From Calidithermus chliarophilus DSM 9957 (lineage in GTDB: Bacteria > Deinococcota > Deinococci > Deinococcales > Thermaceae): a stretch of DNA of 64,000 nt. The translations under genes were made by a program, and so were the position numbers. The DNA is taken from the NCBI RefSeq assembly GCF_000430045.1, contig NZ_KE387023.1:1116601-1180600 (forward strand). Reading direction: 5' to 3'. The notes under the pieces were generated by a model. That model saw only the letters and a list, made by a program, of their open reading frames with translations, did no database searches and was not told where the DNA came from. Positions within the stretch are counted from its first letter, which is position 1; every line of letters starts with the position of its first letter. Positions 16,049 to 45,406 of the stretch are shown piece after piece.

Positions 16049-16954
16049 GTGCGCCGCAGACGACCGGCCCGTTACACCCTATGGCTGGCCCGCACCGGCG
16101 CGGCCCCGCGCACCTTCTCGCTGCCCGTTTGGATCCCGGCAGCCCTCGTGATCTTCCTGGCCGCCTGGAGCGCCTTCAACCTCTACCTGTGGAACCGCAC
16201 GGCCGAGATGCGCAGCCTGCAACTGCGCCTGTCGAGCCTCTCCGGCCAGGCCCGCCAGCTCACCCTCCGGCTCGAGGCCGAGAAAACCCGCAACGACGCT
16301 CTCAGCCAGGAGGCCCAGGAGGTCATGAAGAGCCTGGAGAGCCTCGAGGCCGAGATCAACCGCCTGCGCGAGCGCGCCGGGATGCCCCGGATCCGCCTCA
16401 CCCCCGCCCGCAGCAGCCCCAAGGAGCCTAAGGGCGGCGCGGCCCTGGCCCCCGAGCCTGGGAGCCTCTTCCTCCAGGCCCGGCACCAGCTCACCGGCCT
16501 GGCGGGCGACTTGGGCGAGCTCGAGAGCCGCCTCGACGCCACCCTGCGCCGCGAGGAGGCCCTGCCCAGGGGCTACCCCCTGCCCGGCCACACCCGCATC
16601 ACCTCCTACTTCGGCAACCGCCGCAACCCCTTCGGCGGCCGCCGCTACGAGTTCCACGACGGCCTGGACTTCTCCGCCCCCTACGGCACCCCCGTCCACG
16701 CCACCGCCCCCGGCGTGGTGATCCAGGCGGGCTGGAACGGCCCCTTCGGGCAGTCCATCACCCTCGACCACGGCTACGGCTACCGCACCCTCTACGGCCA
16801 CCTCTCGAGGCTGGGCGCGCGGGTGGGGCAGCGGCTCGAGGCGGGCGAGGTGCTGGGCTGGGTGGGCTCGACCGGCCGCTCGACCGGCGCGCACTTGCAT
16901 TACACGGTGATGCGTTACGGGGTGGCGGTGGACCCACGGGCGTATTTGCCCTAG
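16049..16954 (+). CDS. M23 (LytM) family cell-wall metallopeptidase with coiled coil
   Basis: 301 aa. Basic cytoplasmic N-terminus, one membrane helix at about residues 27-48, a coiled-coil stretch 50-110, a linker, then an M23 domain from about 178. Zinc ligands: His203 and Asp207 (FHDGLDF) and the HLH pair at 282-284. It anchors in the inner membrane and would cut or regulate peptidoglycan peptide bridges, possibly as an envelope-division factor. GTG start; a weak TTGACC (16012-16017) and TCATTC (16035-16040) pair would make it leaderless. The last 4 bases overlap the convergent thioesterase gene. Confidence 0.9.
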   Translation: MRRRRPARYTLWLARTGAAPRTFSLPVWIPAALVIFLAAWSAFNLYLWNRTAEMRSLQLRLSSLSGQARQLTLRLEAEKTRNDALSQEAQEVMKSLESLEAEINRLRERAGMPRIRLTPARSSPKEPKGGAALAPEPGSLFLQARHQLTGLAGDLGELESRLDATLRREEALPRGYPLPGHTRITSYFGNRRNPFGGRRYEFHDGLDFSAPYGTPVHATAPGVVIQAGWNGPFGQSITLDHGYGYRTLYGHLSRLGARVGQRLEAGEVLGWVGSTGRSTGAHLHYTVMRYGVAVDPRAYLP

Positions 16955-17388
16955 GGAATCCGTGGCACGGGCTCGGCCCCCTCGAGCGGCGGCACCGGGA
17001 CAGGCCGGCCGTCGGGGCCTACGGCCACCATCACGAACCCAGCCCGGCAGGCCAGCACGCGCTCCTCTTTGTCCATAGGCTCGACCCACATCTCCACCTC
17101 CAGCCGCATCGAGGTGCGCCCGGTGGCCTTCACCCAGGCCGCCAGCTCCACGATTGAGCCCTGGGGGACGGGGTGGCGGAAGTCGAGGGCGTCGGCGTGC
17201 ACCGTGACCACCTTGCTCCTGGCGTGACGGGTCGCGGCCACGAAGGCCGCCTCGTCCATCCAGGCCATGGCGGTGCCGCCGAAGAGGTTGCCGTAGTGGT
17301 TGGAGTCGCCCGGCAGCACCAGGTGCACGGCGCGGGTGACGCCGGCGCGCGGCTGGGGTAGTGCTTGAGCGGGGGATGGCAGGCCCAT
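16951..17388 (-). CDS. Acyl-CoA thioesterase (hotdog fold, YciA/BFIT type)
   Basis: 145 aa, one hotdog domain. HYGNLFGGTAMAWMDEAAFVAA at about residues 31-52 is the acyl-CoA thioesterase motif with the Asn and the catalytic Asp; VVTVHADALDFRHPV near 60-74 forms the next strands. It hydrolyses acyl-CoA to free acid and CoA. GAAGGAGGAGC precedes the ATG. It starts 9 bases after nrdF and is probably the last gene of the RNR operon. The link with nucleotide reduction is not obvious, and read-through may simply be convenient. Confidence 0.88.
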   Translation of the reverse strand: MGLPSPAQALPQPRAGVTRAVHLVLPGDSNHYGNLFGGTAMAWMDEAAFVAATRHARSKVVTVHADALDFRHPVPQGSIVELAAWVKATGRTSMRLEVEMWVEPMDKEERVLACRAGFVMVAVGPDGRPVPVPPLEGAEPVPRIP

Positions 17389-17397
17389 GCTCCTCCT

Positions 17398-18387
17398 TCA
17401 GAACACGAAGTCCTCATCACGCAGGGGCTCGACCCGGATGGCCTTGACGTAGCCGTTGCCCTTGGTGGAGAAGAAGTCGTGGTTCTTGGTCTGGGTGCGC
17501 AAGCCGGCGAGCACCACCGGGTTGACCTGCTCCTCGCCCACGCCGAAGCAGGGCTCCAGGCCCAGGTTCATCAGGGCCTTGTCGGCGTTGTAGCGGGAAA
17601 AGCGCGTCACCTGCTCCTCCAGCCCGATGGGGGCGTAGAGCTCGGCGGTGTAGCGCGCCTCGAGCCGGTCGAGCCGCTCGAGGATGCCCAGCGCTTCCTG
17701 GCGTGCTTCGCTCTGGGCCCGGTGGCTAAAGCGTTCGAAGACCTGCTGGGCCAGCAGCCCCACGTAGACCCCGTGGATGGACTCGTCGCGGATGATCAGG
17801 TTGATGATCTCCCCCGAGTTCACCAGCTTGCCCTGCCCGGCTAAGAACAGCGGGTAGAAGAAGCCCGAGTAGAACAAGTAGGACTCCAGGAACACGCTCG
17901 TGCACAGGGCGAGGTAGAGGCTCTTCTGGCCCCAGACGTTGCAGTAGCGCTCGTGCACGAAAGCCAGCTTGTCCTGCAAGAGGCGGTTGTGCCGCACCCA
18001 GCCGAAGATCTCCTCGATGCGGGCCGAGGTGCACAGCGTCGAGAAGATGCTGCTGTAGCTCTTGGCGTGCATGTGCTCCATGGCCCCCATGAAGCCCATC
18101 ACCGCCCTGACCTGGGCACTGCCCACGTGCTGCGAGAGCAGGGGCATGCCCACGCTGCCCTGCTCGGTGTCCAGCAGGGTCAGCCCCGCCAGCACGTGCT
18201 CGTAGACCCTCTTCTCCTCGAGCGAGAGGGCCATCCAGGGCAGCTTGTCGTCGGCCAGGGGGATCTCTTCGTCCACCCAGAACTGCCGCACGTTCTGGTC
18301 CCAGAACATCTTGGTGTAAGCGTCGTCGGGCTGGTTCCAGTTGACGGCGGAGAAGGTGGGTTGGTCGGTTGGAGGATCGCTATGCAC
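17398..18387 (-). CDS. nrdF: Class Ib ribonucleotide reductase, beta (radical) subunit
   Basis: 329 aa from a GTG at 18387, chosen because AAGGAG lies 4-9 bases before it; in-frame codons further upstream come from the MITE-like copy D. Dimetal-site residues Asp73 (LLDTEQG), Glu104 and His107 (MEHMHAKSY), a Glu in FLESYLFYSG and the E-x-x-H of RDESIHGVYVG are in order. Tyr111 sits at the radical position (E-x2-H-x3-Y). The pairing with NrdI argues for a dimanganese-tyrosyl radical cofactor. It supplies the radical to NrdE for deoxyribonucleotide synthesis. The operon is nrdI-nrdE-(MITE)-nrdF-thioesterase, led by a cobalamin riboswitch. Confidence 0.93.
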   Translation of the reverse strand: MHSDPPTDQPTFSAVNWNQPDDAYTKMFWDQNVRQFWVDEEIPLADDKLPWMALSLEEKRVYEHVLAGLTLLDTEQGSVGMPLLSQHVGSAQVRAVMGFMGAMEHMHAKSYSSIFSTLCTSARIEEIFGWVRHNRLLQDKLAFVHERYCNVWGQKSLYLALCTSVFLESYLFYSGFFYPLFLAGQGKLVNSGEIINLIIRDESIHGVYVGLLAQQVFERFSHRAQSEARQEALGILERLDRLEARYTAELYAPIGLEEQVTRFSRYNADKALMNLGLEPCFGVGEEQVNPVVLAGLRTQTKNHDFFSTKGNGYVKAIRVEPLRDEDFVF

Positions 18388-18421
18388 TCGAGTCTCCTTA
18401 TTAACATTTCGTGGCCTGTGA

Positions 18422-18593
18422 ATACCGGATTCAAAAAGATAGTCATCCAAACCAAAGACCTTCAGAGGCTATCTTTTTGAATCCTAGAGCACACCCCTCC
18501 CTGACGGTCGGCGAAGCAAGCGCATCCCTTCCAAGGGGCGGTATCGCCCTCCGCCACGCGGATAACTTCAGTCGGGCTGACCGAATCGGGTAT
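18422..18593 (-). repeat. MITE-like palindromic element, copy D (long form, 172 bp)
   Basis: Begins ATACCGGATTC and ends GAATCGGGTAT on the plus strand, inverted relative to copies A-C. The GGATTCAAAAAGATA hairpin is kept; the other half is a longer variant with an extra segment (GAAGCAAGCG ... CCACGCGGATAACTTC) shared with the copies at 43792 and 49074. It lies inside the RNR operon between nrdE and nrdF, just before the nrdF Shine-Dalgarno. The bases from 18594 to the nrdE end hold only heptad-repeat remnants. Confidence 0.9.
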
Positions 18594-18673
18594 GAAGAGG
18601 GCAGGCACAAGGCCATCCCTACAGCGTGGCGTCTAGCGTTCGGCATTAGGACTCAAAGCCCCCGGCCACCGGC

Positions 18674-20752
18674 TCACACCGCACAGGCCAGGCACTCCTC
18701 CACGCCGAGGTTCTTGGTGCGCGTGTAGTAAAGGCTTTTCAGGCCCTTCTTCCAGGCGTAGACGTAAAGCCGCGCCAGCTCGCGGGTGCTGGTCTCGCTG
18801 GTGACGTAGAGGACGGTGCTGATGCCCTGGTCCACGTGCTGCTGCATCTCGGCGACGAGGTCGATGAGCTTGTACATGTCCATCGCGTAGGCCGACTTGT
18901 AAAACCAAAGCGTCTGGGGCGAGAGGTAGGGCATGGGGTAGTAGGTGGTGGCGTTGCCGTAGGTGCGCGTCTCGATGGGCTCGACGACGGGCATGACCGA
19001 GGGGGTGGCGTTTTGGAGGTAGCTGATGCTCTGGGTGGGTGCGACGGCCAGGCGGTAGGAGTGGTACAGGCCGTGCCGCATGACCTCGGCCTTCAGGCGG
19101 CTCCAGTCGGCGGGGGTGGGGATGGCGATGCCCTCGAAGAGCTTGCGCACGGTCTGGGTGCGGGGGCGGTAGTCGGTGTGCTCGTAGCGCTCGAAGTAGG
19201 CCCCGCTGGCGTAGTCCGACTTCTCGAACTGTGCGAAGGTGCGCCCCTTTTGGCGGGCGATGAGCATGGAGCGCTCGAGGGAGTAGTAGTTCAGCGCCAT
19301 GAAGAAGGTCCGCACAAAGTCACGGGCTTCCTCCGACTCGTAGGGGATGTGGTTCTTGGCCAGGTAGCCGTGCAGGTTCATGGCCCCCAGCCCCACCGAG
19401 TGGAACTCCTCGTTGGCCCGCCGCACCCCCGGCGCGTTGGGGATGTCGGAGAGGTCGCTCACCGCGGTGAGGGCGTCCATGGCGGTGTGCACGCTCTCCC
19501 GGAGGTTCTTGCGCTCCATCACCCCGGCGATGTTGAGCGAGCCCAGGTTGCAGCAGATGTCGTAGCCGATGAGGTCGGGCTGGCCGTAGTCACCGATCAC
19601 CGAGGTGCTTTGGATCTGGAAGATCTCGGTGCAGAGGTTGGACATCTTGATCTGCCCGATGCCCTTCAGCGGGTTGGCCGCGTTGGCGTTGGAGCGGTAG
19701 ACGATGTAGGGATAGCCCGACTCGAACTGGGTTTGAGCGATGCGCGTGAGCATCTGCCGGGCCTCGAGGGGCCGCTTCTTCACCTCAGGGTGCGCCACGA
19801 GCTGCTCGTACGTGCGGTCTAGGTCCATGTCGTCGAGGTGCTGCCCGAAGGCTCTGTAGACCGAGTAGGGCGCGAAGACGAAGAACTCCCGGCCCGCCTG
19901 GGCGAGCTCGAAAAACTTGTCCGGCACGATCAGGCCCAGCGAGAGGGTCTGGACGCGGCTCTTCTCGTCGGCGTTGATCTTCTTGGTGTCGAGAAACTCC
20001 TCCACGTCCCAGTGGAAGATGTTGAGGTACACCGCCCCCGCGCCCTTGCGCTGGCCCATCTGGTCGGCGTAGTTGAAGGCGTCCTCGAGCAGCTTCATCA
20101 CCGGGACCACGCCCTTGGCCGCGTGCTCCACCCCCTTGATGGGCTCGCCCCGGCCCCGCAGCTTGGAGAGGTTGAGCGCCACCCCGCCGCCGATCTTGGA
20201 GAGTTGCATGGCCGCATTCAGGTTGAAGCCGATGGAATTGAGGCTGTCGTCGAGCTCGAGCAAGAAGCACGAGACCAGCTCGCCGCGCCGGGCCCGGCCC
20301 GCGTTGAGGAAGGTGGGGGTGGCGGGCTGGTAGCGCCCCTCCATCATCGCCCGCACGTAGGCGCGGGCCCTCTCCACGTCGCCCTGGGCCAGGTGCAGCG
20401 CCACCGCCAGCACCCGGTCCTCGTAGCGCTCGAGGTAGTGCCGCTTGTCGTCGGAGCGCAGCGCGTAGTCCTTGTAGAACTTCGACGCCGCCATGAAGGA
20501 TTGGAACTCGAAGCCGTAGCCGTAGGCCAACCCGGAGAGCTCGGCGATGGCCCCCTCGCTGTAGCGCTCGAAGAAGTCCTCGTAATAGCCCTCCTCGATC
20601 AGGGCGCGCATGCGGGCGATGGGGTGGGGGAAGGCACGCAGCTTGCGGGCTGCTTCGGCCTCGAACTCCCGCAGCGCCTCCCGGTCGCGCTCGAGCTGGA
20701 AGAAGCCGTCCTTCTTCTGCAAGACTTCGCTGTTAAGCTCGAGGTAGCGCAA
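18674..20752 (-). CDS. nrdE: Class Ib ribonucleotide reductase, alpha (catalytic) subunit
   Basis: 692 aa, normal for NrdE. The N-terminal domain is followed by the ten-stranded barrel: PATPTFLNAG near 138-147, the substrate-site Cys in VSCFLLELDDS near 155-165, SNLCTEI near 367-373 with the thiyl-radical Cys, NLGSLN near 402-407, and PTQSISYLQNATPSVMPV near 574-591. The C-terminal CLACAV carries the C-x-x-C pair re-reduced by NrdH-type redoxin. No ATP-cone is visible at the N-terminus, as expected for class Ib. It overlaps nrdI by 20 bases. It reduces NDPs to dNDPs with NrdF. Confidence 0.95.
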   Translation of the reverse strand: MRYLELNSEVLQKKDGFFQLERDREALREFEAEAARKLRAFPHPIARMRALIEEGYYEDFFERYSEGAIAELSGLAYGYGFEFQSFMAASKFYKDYALRSDDKRHYLERYEDRVLAVALHLAQGDVERARAYVRAMMEGRYQPATPTFLNAGRARRGELVSCFLLELDDSLNSIGFNLNAAMQLSKIGGGVALNLSKLRGRGEPIKGVEHAAKGVVPVMKLLEDAFNYADQMGQRKGAGAVYLNIFHWDVEEFLDTKKINADEKSRVQTLSLGLIVPDKFFELAQAGREFFVFAPYSVYRAFGQHLDDMDLDRTYEQLVAHPEVKKRPLEARQMLTRIAQTQFESGYPYIVYRSNANAANPLKGIGQIKMSNLCTEIFQIQSTSVIGDYGQPDLIGYDICCNLGSLNIAGVMERKNLRESVHTAMDALTAVSDLSDIPNAPGVRRANEEFHSVGLGAMNLHGYLAKNHIPYESEEARDFVRTFFMALNYYSLERSMLIARQKGRTFAQFEKSDYASGAYFERYEHTDYRPRTQTVRKLFEGIAIPTPADWSRLKAEVMRHGLYHSYRLAVAPTQSISYLQNATPSVMPVVEPIETRTYGNATTYYPMPYLSPQTLWFYKSAYAMDMYKLIDLVAEMQQHVDQGISTVLYVTSETSTRELARLYVYAWKKGLKSLYYTRTKNLGVEECLACAV

Positions 20753-21104
20753 GCGCCCTCACCCCTTCCCAAAAGCGCGCGACGTCCTCCGCGCGTCCTG
20801 AAAGCTCGAACTTGTGGATCACCTCGAAGCCATACGCCGCGGCCAATTGGTCGGCGGCTTTGGCGTAGTTGCTTCCCCAGTTGCGGTTGCCGCTGGCCGC
20901 CACCGCGCGGATGTGGGCCTGGTTGCGCCGAGCGAAGCGCTCCACCTCGTGCGGCACCTGACCCAGCCCGGTGGTGTAGGTCAGGAGCACGCAGGGCTCG
21001 CCGGCTTCCTCCTCACCCGTGCGAATTTGCAGCAGCCTGGGCGCGGGCAGCTTTCGCACGAAGCGCTCGACATTGCCGGTTCTGGAAGCATAGACGATGA
21101 GCAA
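20733..21104 (-). CDS. nrdI: NrdI flavodoxin-like activator of class Ib RNR
   Basis: 123 aa. Flavodoxin-type FMN loop YASRTGNVERF near residues 5-15, LLTYTTGLGQVPHEVERF at about 39-56 and the NrdI-typical SGNRNWGSNYAKAAD near 71-85. NrdI supplies the oxidant that builds the Mn2-tyrosyl radical in NrdF. The TTG start is preceded by GAGGTGA, 4 bases away. The leader of about 360 bases holds a cobalamin riboswitch and a heptad array, so the whole operon is probably shut down by B12. Confidence 0.9.
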   Translation of the reverse strand: MLIVYASRTGNVERFVRKLPAPRLLQIRTGEEEAGEPCVLLTYTTGLGQVPHEVERFARRNQAHIRAVAASGNRNWGSNYAKAADQLAAAYGFEVIHKFELSGRAEDVARFWEGVRALALPRA

Positions 21105-21117
21105 GGGTCACCTCGGA

Positions 21118-21265
21118 ATTGTCGATGGTCGATGGTCGATAGCCATTGGGTCGCGCGTCCTACGCCGAACGCAAAACGCCGATAGCCGCCCGTTGTAGAG
21201 ATGGGCCTTGTGCCTGCCCTCTTTCCCACGGGCTAGCCACGAGCTACGAGCCACAGGCTGGCCGT
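21118..21265 (-). repeat. Heptanucleotide array inside the nrdI leader
   Basis: Degenerate 7-base units: GTCGATG/GTCGATA at one end, then CGCAAAA/CGCCGAT, and GAGCTAC/GAGCCAC units at the other. It lies between the riboswitch and the nrdI start, i.e. in the transcribed leader. No gene is seen in it. Confidence 0.65.
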
Positions 21266-21319
21266 ATGCGCCTTTATGCGGTGCTTAGCTGTAGGGGGAG
21301 ATTCACCTTTACCATCCTT

Positions 21320-21467
21320 TCCGCCCCTGACGCGGGGGCGAGGAATAGGATCTGGGCAGGCGTTCGGGCTTACGGGGTTGGGCCCCGATCACCGTTGCGC
21401 GACAGCGGCGGATTCACACCGCACTTCCCCTGTCTCCAAACCCAGAGGCCACATCTTGTGGTCTCTG
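21320..21467 (-). ncRNA. Cobalamin (B12) riboswitch upstream of nrdIEF
   Basis: Read on the minus strand. The region carries the main conserved blocks of the family: GGGGAAGTGCGGTGTGAATCC followed by GCCGCTGTC (21401-21430), GCGCAACGGTGA just after (to about 21388), and AGCCCGAACGCCTGCC (21355-21370). The CCTCTG/CAGAGG stem near the 5' end and the hairpin CGCCCC/GGGGCG at 21320-21340 fit the outer arms. The promoter at 21474-21502 puts the transcript start at about 21467. Established use of this riboswitch: B12 binding lowers expression. Control of a B12-independent RNR by B12 implies a B12-dependent class II RNR elsewhere in the genome (inference). No clear U-tract terminator follows, so the mode of control is open. 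Confidence 0.88.
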
Positions 21468-21473
21468 CCGAGA

Positions 21474-21502
21474 AATCTACTACAGGTTGAGTACCTTGTC
21501 CA
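21474..21502 (-). promoter_or_regulatory. Promoter of the riboswitch-nrdIEF transcript
   Basis: On the minus strand TGGACA (21497-21502), 17-base spacer, TAGATT (21474-21479). It stands immediately before the cobalamin riboswitch and points towards nrdI. Confidence 0.65.
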
Positions 21503-21585
21503 TAGGTTTGTGGGGTTCCTTTGGCTTTCCTTCATCCGACCTGGGCTGAACCGGGCGGAGGCCGGGGGAGGGGTAAACTGAGCCG

Positions 21586-21975
21586 ATGCTGAGTCGTGGT
21601 AAGTCTTCACCCAACGCTTCGCTGACCTACCTGGCCGAGGGCACCGAGCTCGAGGGCAACCTCAAGGCCAAGGGGCAGGTGCGCATCGACGGGACGGTGC
21701 GGGGCTCGGTGCTGGTGGAGGGCGAGCTCGAGATCGGGCCCACCGGCTTTATCGAGGGCGAGCAGGTCAAGGCCAAGAACGCCCACGTGCAGGGCAAGGT
21801 GCGGGCGGCCGTCGCGGTGGAGGGCAAGCTCACCCTCACCAAGAGCGGGCAGCTCGAGGGCGACGTGCGCGCGCGGGCGCTCGACATCGAGGCGGGGGCG
21901 GTGTTCATCGGGCGCAGCCAGACCGGGGAGGTCAAGGCCGCGCTGCCCCAGCCGTCCAAAACGGCCAGCGAGTAA
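21586..21975 (+). CDS. Bactofilin family cytoskeletal protein
   Basis: 129 aa. Short disordered N-terminus, then a right-handed beta-helix DUF583 core from about residue 14 to 112 with regular I/V-x-G repeats (ELEGNLKAKGQVRIDGTVRGS, GKVRAAVAVEGKLTLTKSG), and a short tail. Bactofilins polymerise without nucleotides and help organise cell shape or envelope enzymes. TAAACT lies 6 bases before the ATG and no Shine-Dalgarno is seen, so the mRNA is probably leaderless. Divergent from the RNR operon; a clear terminator follows. Confidence 0.92.
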   Translation: MLSRGKSSPNASLTYLAEGTELEGNLKAKGQVRIDGTVRGSVLVEGELEIGPTGFIEGEQVKAKNAHVQGKVRAAVAVEGKLTLTKSGQLEGDVRARALDIEAGAVFIGRSQTGEVKAALPQPSKTASE

Positions 21976-21987
21976 GCCGCGCAGGCG

Positions 21988-22027
21988 GCCCGGAGGGCGA
22001 TTTGTACGGCCCTCCGGGCATTTTCTT
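21988..22027 (+). terminator. Intrinsic terminator after the bactofilin gene
   Basis: Perfect 11-bp stem GCCCGGAGGGC / GCCCTCCGGGC with a 10-base loop, followed by ATTTTCTT. A textbook Rho-independent terminator 12 bases after the stop codon. Confidence 0.9.
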
Positions 22028-44113: not shown

Positions 44114-44253
44114 TTCTCTTATCCAGAGCAGCGGAGGGAATCGGCCCGATGAAGCTGCGGCAACCCGTAGGGGCGTTCAGCCGGCAAACTGAACCGTCTC
44201 TACGTAGGTGCCAATTCCGACCCGGTGTTGGGTGGCCGGGGGAGATGAGAGAA
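44114..44253 (+). ncRNA. SAM-I (S-box) riboswitch
   Basis: The conserved S-box order is present: TTCTCTTATCCAGAG, GGAGGGAATCGGCCCGATGAA, GCGGCAACCC, then GGTGCCAATTCC, and the closing GAGATGAGAGAA that pairs with the first strand to form P1. The S-box senses S-adenosylmethionine and turns the downstream genes off when it is plentiful. The purine run GAGAAGGGG at the end of P1 can pair with the left arm of the terminator at 44279, giving the usual antiterminator. Confidence 0.93.
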
Positions 44254-44362: not shown

Positions 44363-45406
44363 GTGGAAGAGCTGAACCTCGAGCACGACTATTGCTGCCC
44401 CGGCTGCGACACCCAGCCGCAGGGCGCGGACTTGGGACGCCGCACCGTGATCGGCGGGATCGCGGCCCTGGCGGCCAGCAGCCTGGGGATCGCCCAGGCC
44501 AAGAAGGTAAAGATCGGCACCTGCGGCCAGTTCCTCTGCCTGGTGCCCTACGAGGTCGCCAAGCGCCGGGGCTACTTCCAGGAGCAGGGCCTCGACGTGG
44601 AGATCATCTGGGCCAAGGGCGGCACCCAGGCCTTGCAGTTCATGATCGGCGGGGCGGTGGACTACTCGGCCACCAGCCTCGACGCGGTGCTGCAGGCCCG
44701 CCAGCGCGGGGCCAAGGTGGTGCAGGTGGCCTCCTCGGGCCGGCTGCCGCTGTTCGCGCTGGCGACCGCGCCCAAGACCGCCGGGGCCATCCAGGCCGTC
44801 AAGGACCTGGCCGGGCGCACGGTGGCGGTCTCGGGGCTGGGCAACGCCGACCACCTGATGCTGCAGTACCTGCTCAAGCGGGCGGGCGTGGACCCCAAGG
44901 GCGTGCAGTACGCCACCATCGGCACCAACCTCTTCGAGGCCCTCAAGCAGGGGCAGGTCGAGGCGGGCATGGTGCAGGAGCCCGCGCTCAGCCTGCTCAA
45001 GGAGGCCGGGGGGCGCGAGCTCGTCAACCTGATGGACTTCAACCAGGCTAAGGCCTTCATGGGCGGCCCCTACGCCTTCATGGGCCTCAACATCCGCTCC
45101 GAGGAGCGCGACGCCCGTGCGGGGGAGATCCGGCGCATCGCCAAGGCCATCGAGAAGGGTATCCAGTTCGTGCAGACCGCCAGGGCCAACGTGATCGTGG
45201 ACTCGCTGCCCAAGGAGCTCATCGTCGGCGGGGACCGCAAGCAGCTCGAGGCCATCATCGACCGCTACCGCCGCTCGCTCTACCAGTCCAGCCTCAAGCT
45301 CGACCGCGACGCCGCCGAGCGCACCGTGGACATCCAGCAGGCCGCCGGGGTGCTGCCCGCGGGGTTCAAGGTGGACGAGGCGCTGGACTTCGGGATTCTG
45401 GGATAG
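44363..45406 (+). CDS. ABC transporter substrate-binding protein (SsuA/NrtA/TauA-like) with Cys-rich leader
   Basis: 347 aa. GTG start after AAGGAGG. An N-terminal region of 25 residues with a CCPGC cluster (Cys11, Cys12, Cys15) precedes a twin-arginine signal (GRRTVIGGIAALAASSLG, cut near residue 46). The mature domain is NMT1/SsuA-like: GYFQEQGLDVEIIWAKGGTQALQFMIGG near 72-99. It would bind a sulfonate or similar sulfur compound. S-box control supports sulfur or methionine supply. It is the first gene of a three-gene importer. The metal-binding-like leader before a Tat signal is unusual; a folding check before export is possible. Confidence 0.88.
   Translation: MEELNLEHDYCCPGCDTQPQGADLGRRTVIGGIAALAASSLGIAQAKKVKIGTCGQFLCLVPYEVAKRRGYFQEQGLDVEIIWAKGGTQALQFMIGGAVDYSATSLDAVLQARQRGAKVVQVASSGRLPLFALATAPKTAGAIQAVKDLAGRTVAVSGLGNADHLMLQYLLKRAGVDPKGVQYATIGTNLFEALKQGQVEAGMVQEPALSLLKEAGGRELVNLMDFNQAKAFMGGPYAFMGLNIRSEERDARAGEIRRIAKAIEKGIQFVQTARANVIVDSLPKELIVGGDRKQLEAIIDRYRRSLYQSSLKLDRDAAERTVDIQQAAGVLPAGFKVDEALDFGILG

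Follow-up and report, generated by a model that had tools for sequence, protein, structure and literature searches.

A cobalamin riboswitch before a class Ib ribonucleotide reductase operon of Calidithermus chliarophilus, probably acting through an upstream mini-ORF

We analyzed a stretch of 64,000 nucleotides from the 4.69-Mb genome of Calidithermus chliarophilus DSM 9957 (contig NZ_KE387023.1; G000:C3:1116601-1180600 in our numbering), hereafter the window. On its minus strand, from 21502 to 16951, lies an operon with the order promoter, cobalamin (vitamin B12) riboswitch, mini-open reading frame (mini-ORF), nrdI, nrdE, nrdF and a thioesterase gene. We propose that the riboswitch is a B12-responsive OFF switch of the class Ib ribonucleotide reductase (RNR) encoded by nrdI-nrdE-nrdF, that it works via the mini-ORF, and that NrdR provides an additional brake. 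We put the probability of this reading as a whole at roughly two in three. That cobalamin switches nrdIEF off is very probable, with both ligand and sign presumed; action through the ribosome site of the mini-ORF, which is presumably translated, is probable. At the level of the sequence, the locus contains the aptamer, the platform hairpin, a conserved Shine-Dalgarno (SD) sequence with its start codon, and a pair of boxes that recurs at a second RNR gene, and the genome carries both RNR genes.

In the proposed mechanism, the host would normally use a B12-dependent class II RNR (NrdJ), and is probably unable to make B12. Binding of cobalamin to the aptamer would stabilize the P13 hairpin, presumably via a kissing loop between L5 and L13, and the stabilized hairpin would bury the SD of the 10-codon mini-ORF. 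The ribosome site of nrdI itself lies outside the switch, so a relay is needed: a mini-ORF free of ribosomes may leave the leader open to mRNA decay, Rho-dependent termination or both, and expression of nrdI-nrdE-nrdF and the thioesterase gene would cease. When B12 is short, the mini-ORF would be translated and the operon would run. NrdR, reporting dATP/ATP, may act as a second, transcriptional brake at boxes straddling the transcription start, one of which lies inside the riboswitch leader; nrdJ appears to carry a matching pair.

The riboswitch and its genomic context

A cmscan search yielded a full-length match to the Cobalamin family RF00174 at 21460-21338 on the minus strand (43.8 bits, gathering score 31.5 bits; E 1e-7 for the 64-kb window); the window has just one other Rfam match. 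The initial annotation had placed a cobalamin riboswitch at 21320-21467 on this strand. The significant covariance match bears out the element itself, and its extent needs correction: the aptamer spans 21338-21460, and a separate hairpin, coincident with an NrdR-like box, occupies 21443-21467. By covariance score the element belongs to Rfam clan CL00101, and 19 of 19 relatives also score above a threshold of this clan. The aptamer core is conserved in 19/19 loci, and compensatory changes support P1 (RNAalifold).

The aptamer is class II-like, with a short P6 extension and without P8-P12; the extension holds a 15-nt hairpin in the window, and none in most relatives. The window copy shares the core, the B12 box and the P3-P6 junction with both RF00174 and the AdoCbl-II family RF01689, but it scores best as RF00174 and has the short hairpin in the P6 extension, whereas RF01689 is the best-scoring family for most relatives (42-54 bits). 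The GGAA at J3/4 that marks class IIb is present, as the GGGGAAG after P3 is invariant in our alignment of 18 sequences. We do not assign the aptamer to class IIb, because J6/3 differs from UCU: it reads ACG in the window, and UCG, UUA, AUG or AUA among relatives. Pairing between L5 and L13, over 3-4 pairs, looks possible.

The expression platform is an extended P13 hairpin over the ribosome site of the mini-ORF (21314-21351, minus strand; core stem 21323-21339, loop CGCGUCA). Its pairing (GUCCU/AGGAC and variants, around a CGCGnnA loop) holds in all 18 aligned sequences, with three of the five core pairs altered on both sides, that is, by compensatory changes. Directly 3' of it stands a nearly invariant GGAAAGG. 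In the window the hairpin extends across this motif (AUCCU/AGGAU, UUCC/GGAA), with a predicted stability of -18.8 kcal/mol for a fold at 37 °C, in an organism that is probably a moderate thermophile. At the same temperature the SD of the mini-ORF (GGAAAGGA, 21315-21322, minus strand), itself nearly invariant in relatives, has a predicted probability of being unpaired of at most 0.11. The SD of the upstream ORF (uORF) is therefore masked by the hairpin that bears L13, as in the ppe2 riboswitch of Mycobacterium tuberculosis discussed below.

The class Ib identity of the enzyme is firm. NrdI (20733-21104, TTG start, TIGR00333), NrdE (18674-20752, TIGR04170) and NrdF (17398-18387, TIGR04171), all on the minus strand and in one operon, score 87.4, 1038.6 and 445 bits, above the NCBIfam class Ib cut-offs of 74.65, 750 and 355 bits, as the initial annotation had proposed. 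For nrdF, the GTG at 18387 with AAGGAG directly upstream is probably the start, rather than the longest-ORF start at 18450. The annotation took the enzyme to be of the manganese/NrdI type, and a Mn/tyrosyl cofactor made with NrdI is putative.

Among the Thermaceae family genomes, TIGR04170 identifies 19 class Ib loci in 18 genomes. A cobalamin-clan riboswitch lies upstream in 19 of 19, and the same arrangement precedes every one of the 19 nrdE genes, which argues that it is not due to chance. NrdE of the window is 93% identical to that of Calidithermus roseus, to which the genome is close. Class Ib operons outside the family (L066, L067 and L068; 63-75% identical) have no cobalamin riboswitch, so the switch is not found with the gene in relatives at this distance. 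A class-wide search gained no genomes beyond the order, and in the literature searched we found no paper on cobalamin riboswitches in Meiothermus.

The genome has a single class Ib NrdE and a single class II NrdJ, encoded on another contig (G000:C7; TIGR02504, 568.5 bits, cut-off 399.95 bits), and NrdJ occurs in 48 of the 50 family genomes. A second cobalamin riboswitch precedes a gene for a BtuF-like binding protein (B12 uptake). CbiC, a marker of B12 synthesis that this pathway requires, is absent from this genome and from every Calidithermus/Meiothermus genome examined; it was found solely in 13 genomes on the Thermus side. Therefore, Calidithermus and Meiothermus probably have to import their B12; a backup RNR that works without it makes sense for such bacteria, and the class Ib enzyme is the B12-independent alternative in these probable importers. 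The class II RNR and the B12-uptake gene that the initial annotation had suggested looking for are thus in place, and its reading that B12 decides between the class II and the class Ib enzyme is supported by gene content. It had missed that the switch covers the ribosome site of a mini-ORF and not that of nrdI, that NrdR-like boxes lie over the promoter and leader, and that a thioesterase belongs to the regulon.

The mini-ORF and the silencing step

The mini-ORF (21274-21306, minus strand) reads GTG AAT CTC CCC CTA CAG CTA AGC ACC GCA TAA, and its start codon stands at a constant distance from the SD in all relatives: ATG, GTG or TTG, varying in the first base only, follows GGAAAGG by 7-9 nt in 19/19 leaders. 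The ORF has 7-11 codons across leaders and ends in TAA or TAG. No further start codon occurs at offsets 10-29 in the 18 aligned leaders, against about nine expected from composition, a figure that assumes independent leaders, whereas these form 12 clusters at 60% identity. The gene nrdI starts at 21104 with its own SD (GAGGTGA, 21108-21114, minus strand), about 170 nt beyond the mini-ORF stop (75-400 nt in relatives), and most leaders have such an SD. It is the SD of the mini-ORF that is masked, not that of nrdI, whose ribosome site lies about 190 nt downstream.

Mini-ORFs at the same place occur beyond the family, in G009 (GTG AGG CCT GTG CAG GAC ACG AGC TAA), G108 (ATG GCA GGA CCC TAG) and G001 (ATG TTC ACC CCC TGA). 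The same layout, with unrelated mini-ORFs, also occurs in Thermus, and a mini-ORF with a masked SD is found in four families, without sequence similarity between the mini-ORFs. In most Thermus leaders the peptide is V-(M/R)-P-V-G-P-stop; the variation consists mainly of synonymous CCT/CCC changes and TAA/TAG/TGA swaps at one codon, and one pair of leaders has a shifted frame with the Pro-stop ending retained.

These observations bear on the simplest alternative, in which the riboswitch controls the operon without a functional mini-ORF: cobalamin binding would alter RNA stability or expose a Rho site directly, and the island of SD and start codon would be a conserved part of the fold. The poorly conserved peptide of the nrdI group would fit this explanation, as would the partial conservation, in frames that differ between clades, of the RNA that follows the start codon (CCC.TACAACCTA). 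However, conservation of a fold does not readily account for a start codon that keeps SD spacing in all 19 leaders and varies, between A, G and T, only in its first base, and that no further start codon follows within 20 nt, nor for Thermus changes that are synonymous and preserve the stop, nor for mini-ORFs in four families that lack sequence similarity. We therefore consider control without the mini-ORF unlikely, and favor action through its ribosome site.

To our knowledge, a B12 riboswitch acting through a uORF has so far been shown only in M. tuberculosis, while B12 riboswitches on B12-independent enzymes are already known. In the ppe2 riboswitch of that organism, translation of the uORF (uPPE2) is essential, and the switch acts by termination-reinitiation through an AUGA overlap (PMC11260477). 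Both systems have a compact class II-like aptamer, GGAA at J3/4 and a uORF whose SD is masked by the hairpin that bears L13 (PMC11260477). The ppe2 gene depends on its uORF (PMC11260477), whereas here such dependence is proposed; the present mini-ORF also lies far from its gene, the switch targets an RNR, and its layout is maintained throughout the order and before several operons. The metE riboswitch of M. tuberculosis contains an ORF within its aptamer, and this ORF reduces metE expression (PMC11260477). It resembles the present system as a B12 OFF switch on a B12-independent isozyme with a small leader ORF (PMC11260477), but a metE operon in Thermus has its mini-ORF after the aptamer.

The likeness to ppe2, where a riboswitch-masked uORF likewise lies upstream of the gene (PMC11260477), raises the possibility of translational coupling, with ribosomes that terminate at the mini-ORF reinitiating at the operon. 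Such coupling in ppe2 needs a tight AUGA overlap, whereas the gap of about 170 nt leaves no overlap of stop and start here, and nrdI has an SD of its own in most leaders. Reinitiation at this distance is unlikely, we regard the coupling model as improbable, and because of the gap we have not classed the switch as ppe2-type.

Transcriptional attenuation by an intrinsic terminator would be a further way to convey the signal, and the btuF-like riboswitch of the same genome offers a precedent, as CCCCTGCTCCCGCAGGGG in its leader is succeeded by CGTTTTC. Among the nrdI leaders, that of L039 contains GGCGGATACCGCC-TTTTT. Applied uniformly, our rule finds a terminator in 0/18 nrdI and 0/26 thioesterase leaders, against 15 of the 31 other cobalamin riboswitches of the order. 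On these counts we rejected an intrinsic terminator as the output, and attenuation is very improbable. In the relay through the mini-ORF, the silencing step would most plausibly be Rho polarity or mRNA decay.

Several points weigh against the proposed reading. J6/3 lacks the UCU described for class IIb, so it does not indicate a ligand preference. The fold of the whole leader is not unusually stable (z -1.2), and neither is that of the platform alone (z -0.73). The mini-ORF peptide of the nrdI group is not conserved, and its frame relative to the conserved bases differs between clades, so that only the SD and start codon are clearly under selection. An ORF of 7-10 codons covers little RNA, and even its translation leaves about 100-200 nt unread by ribosomes, which weakens a simple model in which ribosomes shield the RNA from Rho. 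Finally, the L039 leader has a weak terminator-like hairpin, which a stricter stem rule does not call.

NrdR-like boxes at the transcription start

The promoter that the initial annotation had proposed at 21474-21502, pointing toward nrdI, stands: TGGACA-N17-TAGATT (-35 at 21497-21502, -10 at 21474-21479, minus strand) is the only sigma-70-like site in 17000-22000, where shuffled sequences give an expectation of 0.2. Two palindromic boxes, 31 bp apart from start to start and separated by a 15-bp spacer, flank the transcription start in 19/19 leaders. Box 1 (ACTCAACCTGTAGTAG, 21477-21492, minus strand) overlaps the -10 and aligns in all 19 leaders; box 2 (CCACAAGATGTGGCCT, 21446-21461, minus strand) lies in the transcribed leader within the RNA hairpin at 21443-21467 (-12 kcal/mol, z -3.9). 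The box core ACAAnnTnTAGT resembles the consensus of NrdR boxes. The NrdR gene occurs in 49 of the 50 family genomes, that of the window included.

The genome's own nrdJ promoter carries CCACTATAGGTAGTAG and CCCCAAGATATAGGG at the same 31-bp offset, without a riboswitch. The nrdJ box 2 scores low with the matrix derived from the leaders; other Meiothermus nrdJ promoters usually keep the 31-bp offset, with a clear box 1 and a box 2 that this matrix rates weaker. NrdR sites are described as two 16-bp boxes with a spacer of 14-17 bp, 15-16 bp being the norm (PMC12051234), and the 15-bp spacer of the 19 leaders and of the own nrdJ conforms to this rule. The 5' hairpin at 21443-21467 was also considered as a helix of the riboswitch, but nrdJ, which has no riboswitch, is preceded by a similar, equally spaced box pair, which makes this role less likely. 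In the thioesterase leaders of Thermus we found no clear NrdR box 2. The riboswitch, the boxes and the transcription start overlap within about 60 nt; the cofactor and deoxynucleotide (dNTP) signals would therefore meet at one spot.

Work by Borovok and by Grinberg in 2006 reportedly placed the class Ia operon nrdABS of Streptomyces under a B12 riboswitch together with NrdR. That system shares with the scheme proposed here a B12 riboswitch repressing a B12-independent class I RNR in the presence of a class II RNR, and NrdR boxes on both RNR operons; the present locus differs in its class Ib enzyme, its occurrence in Thermaceae, its class II-like aptamer, the mini-ORF platform and the position of NrdR box 2 in the leader.

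The thioesterase and an order-wide regulon

The probable last gene of the operon (16951-17388, minus strand) encodes a YciA-like acyl-CoA thioesterase of the hotdog type (PF03061, 4HBT, 74.9 bits; YciA nearest in NCBIfam). Orthologues lie downstream of nrdF in most class Ib loci, and in 25 of 28 Thermus-side genomes a cobalamin riboswitch immediately precedes a close homologue. The next genes are nrdB-nrdA in L139 and metE in L155, and in G108, G009 and G001 the thioesterase gene stands before nrdA. Throughout the order, RNR or metE operons with a B12 riboswitch are thus accompanied by a YciA-like thioesterase. Since its partners are different B12-independent isozymes, the gene probably has a role linked to the lack of B12 as such. 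An adenosylcobalamin-dependent acyl-CoA mutase family gene (PF01642) occurs in all 50 family genomes, and the thioesterase perhaps frees coenzyme A (CoA) trapped when this mutase stalls.

On the Thermus side, the thioesterase gene of loci L122-L155, L054, L121 and L148 comes directly after a cobalamin riboswitch with a mini-ORF, the next genes are metE or those of a class I RNR, and some genomes carry two riboswitch/mini-ORF/thioesterase operons. Proline (in GP, DP or NP) is the last residue of the mini-ORFs in the Thermus thioesterase leaders, and G108 and G001 also have a Pro-stop ending. A proline before the stop codon slows termination.

We tentatively extend the proposal to the order (Thermus, Meiothermus and Marinithermus-like), while holding it somewhat doubtful: cobalamin riboswitches on B12-independent enzymes might act there only by relay through a mini-ORF, in a B12-starvation regulon of which the YciA-like thioesterase would be a constant member, perhaps freeing trapped CoA, and the Gly-Pro-stop peptide of Thermus may park a terminating ribosome. 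If the relay holds, a masked SD of a mini-ORF in four families and before several operons would be a recurrent design. The homologue in Thermus thermophilus is TTHB207 (PDB 2EIS), and the regulon makes this protein, of solved structure and unassigned function, a candidate for a role in B12 starvation, a prediction open to testing since T. thermophilus is a laboratory organism. In the literature searched we found nothing naming TTHB207 and, judged by titles and abstracts, no evident link of this kind between a cobalamin riboswitch and a thioesterase.

The intergenic region between nrdE and nrdF contains a 58-nt near-perfect inverted repeat at 18427-18484 (GGATTCAAAAAGATAG...CTATCTTTTTGAATCC; -24.3 kcal/mol, z -4.9), which is a dispersed palindromic element, since its arm has 223 copies in the genome and the reversed control none. 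The sequence GAGGGCAGGCACAAGGCC occurs in the same gap at 18597-18614 (plus strand) and, inverted, in the spacer between mini-ORF and nrdI at 21204-21221 (minus strand); it is possibly another dispersed repeat. One family genome (G023, contig C2) has two copies of the nrdIEF locus (L050 and L056) of equal score and with the same leader, in opposite orientation and 200 kb apart. The other Rfam match of the window is a SAM-I riboswitch at 44116-44251 (plus strand, 84.9 bits), and the product of the ORF downstream of it (44363-45406) resembles ABC-type substrate-binding proteins of the nitrate/sulfonate type.

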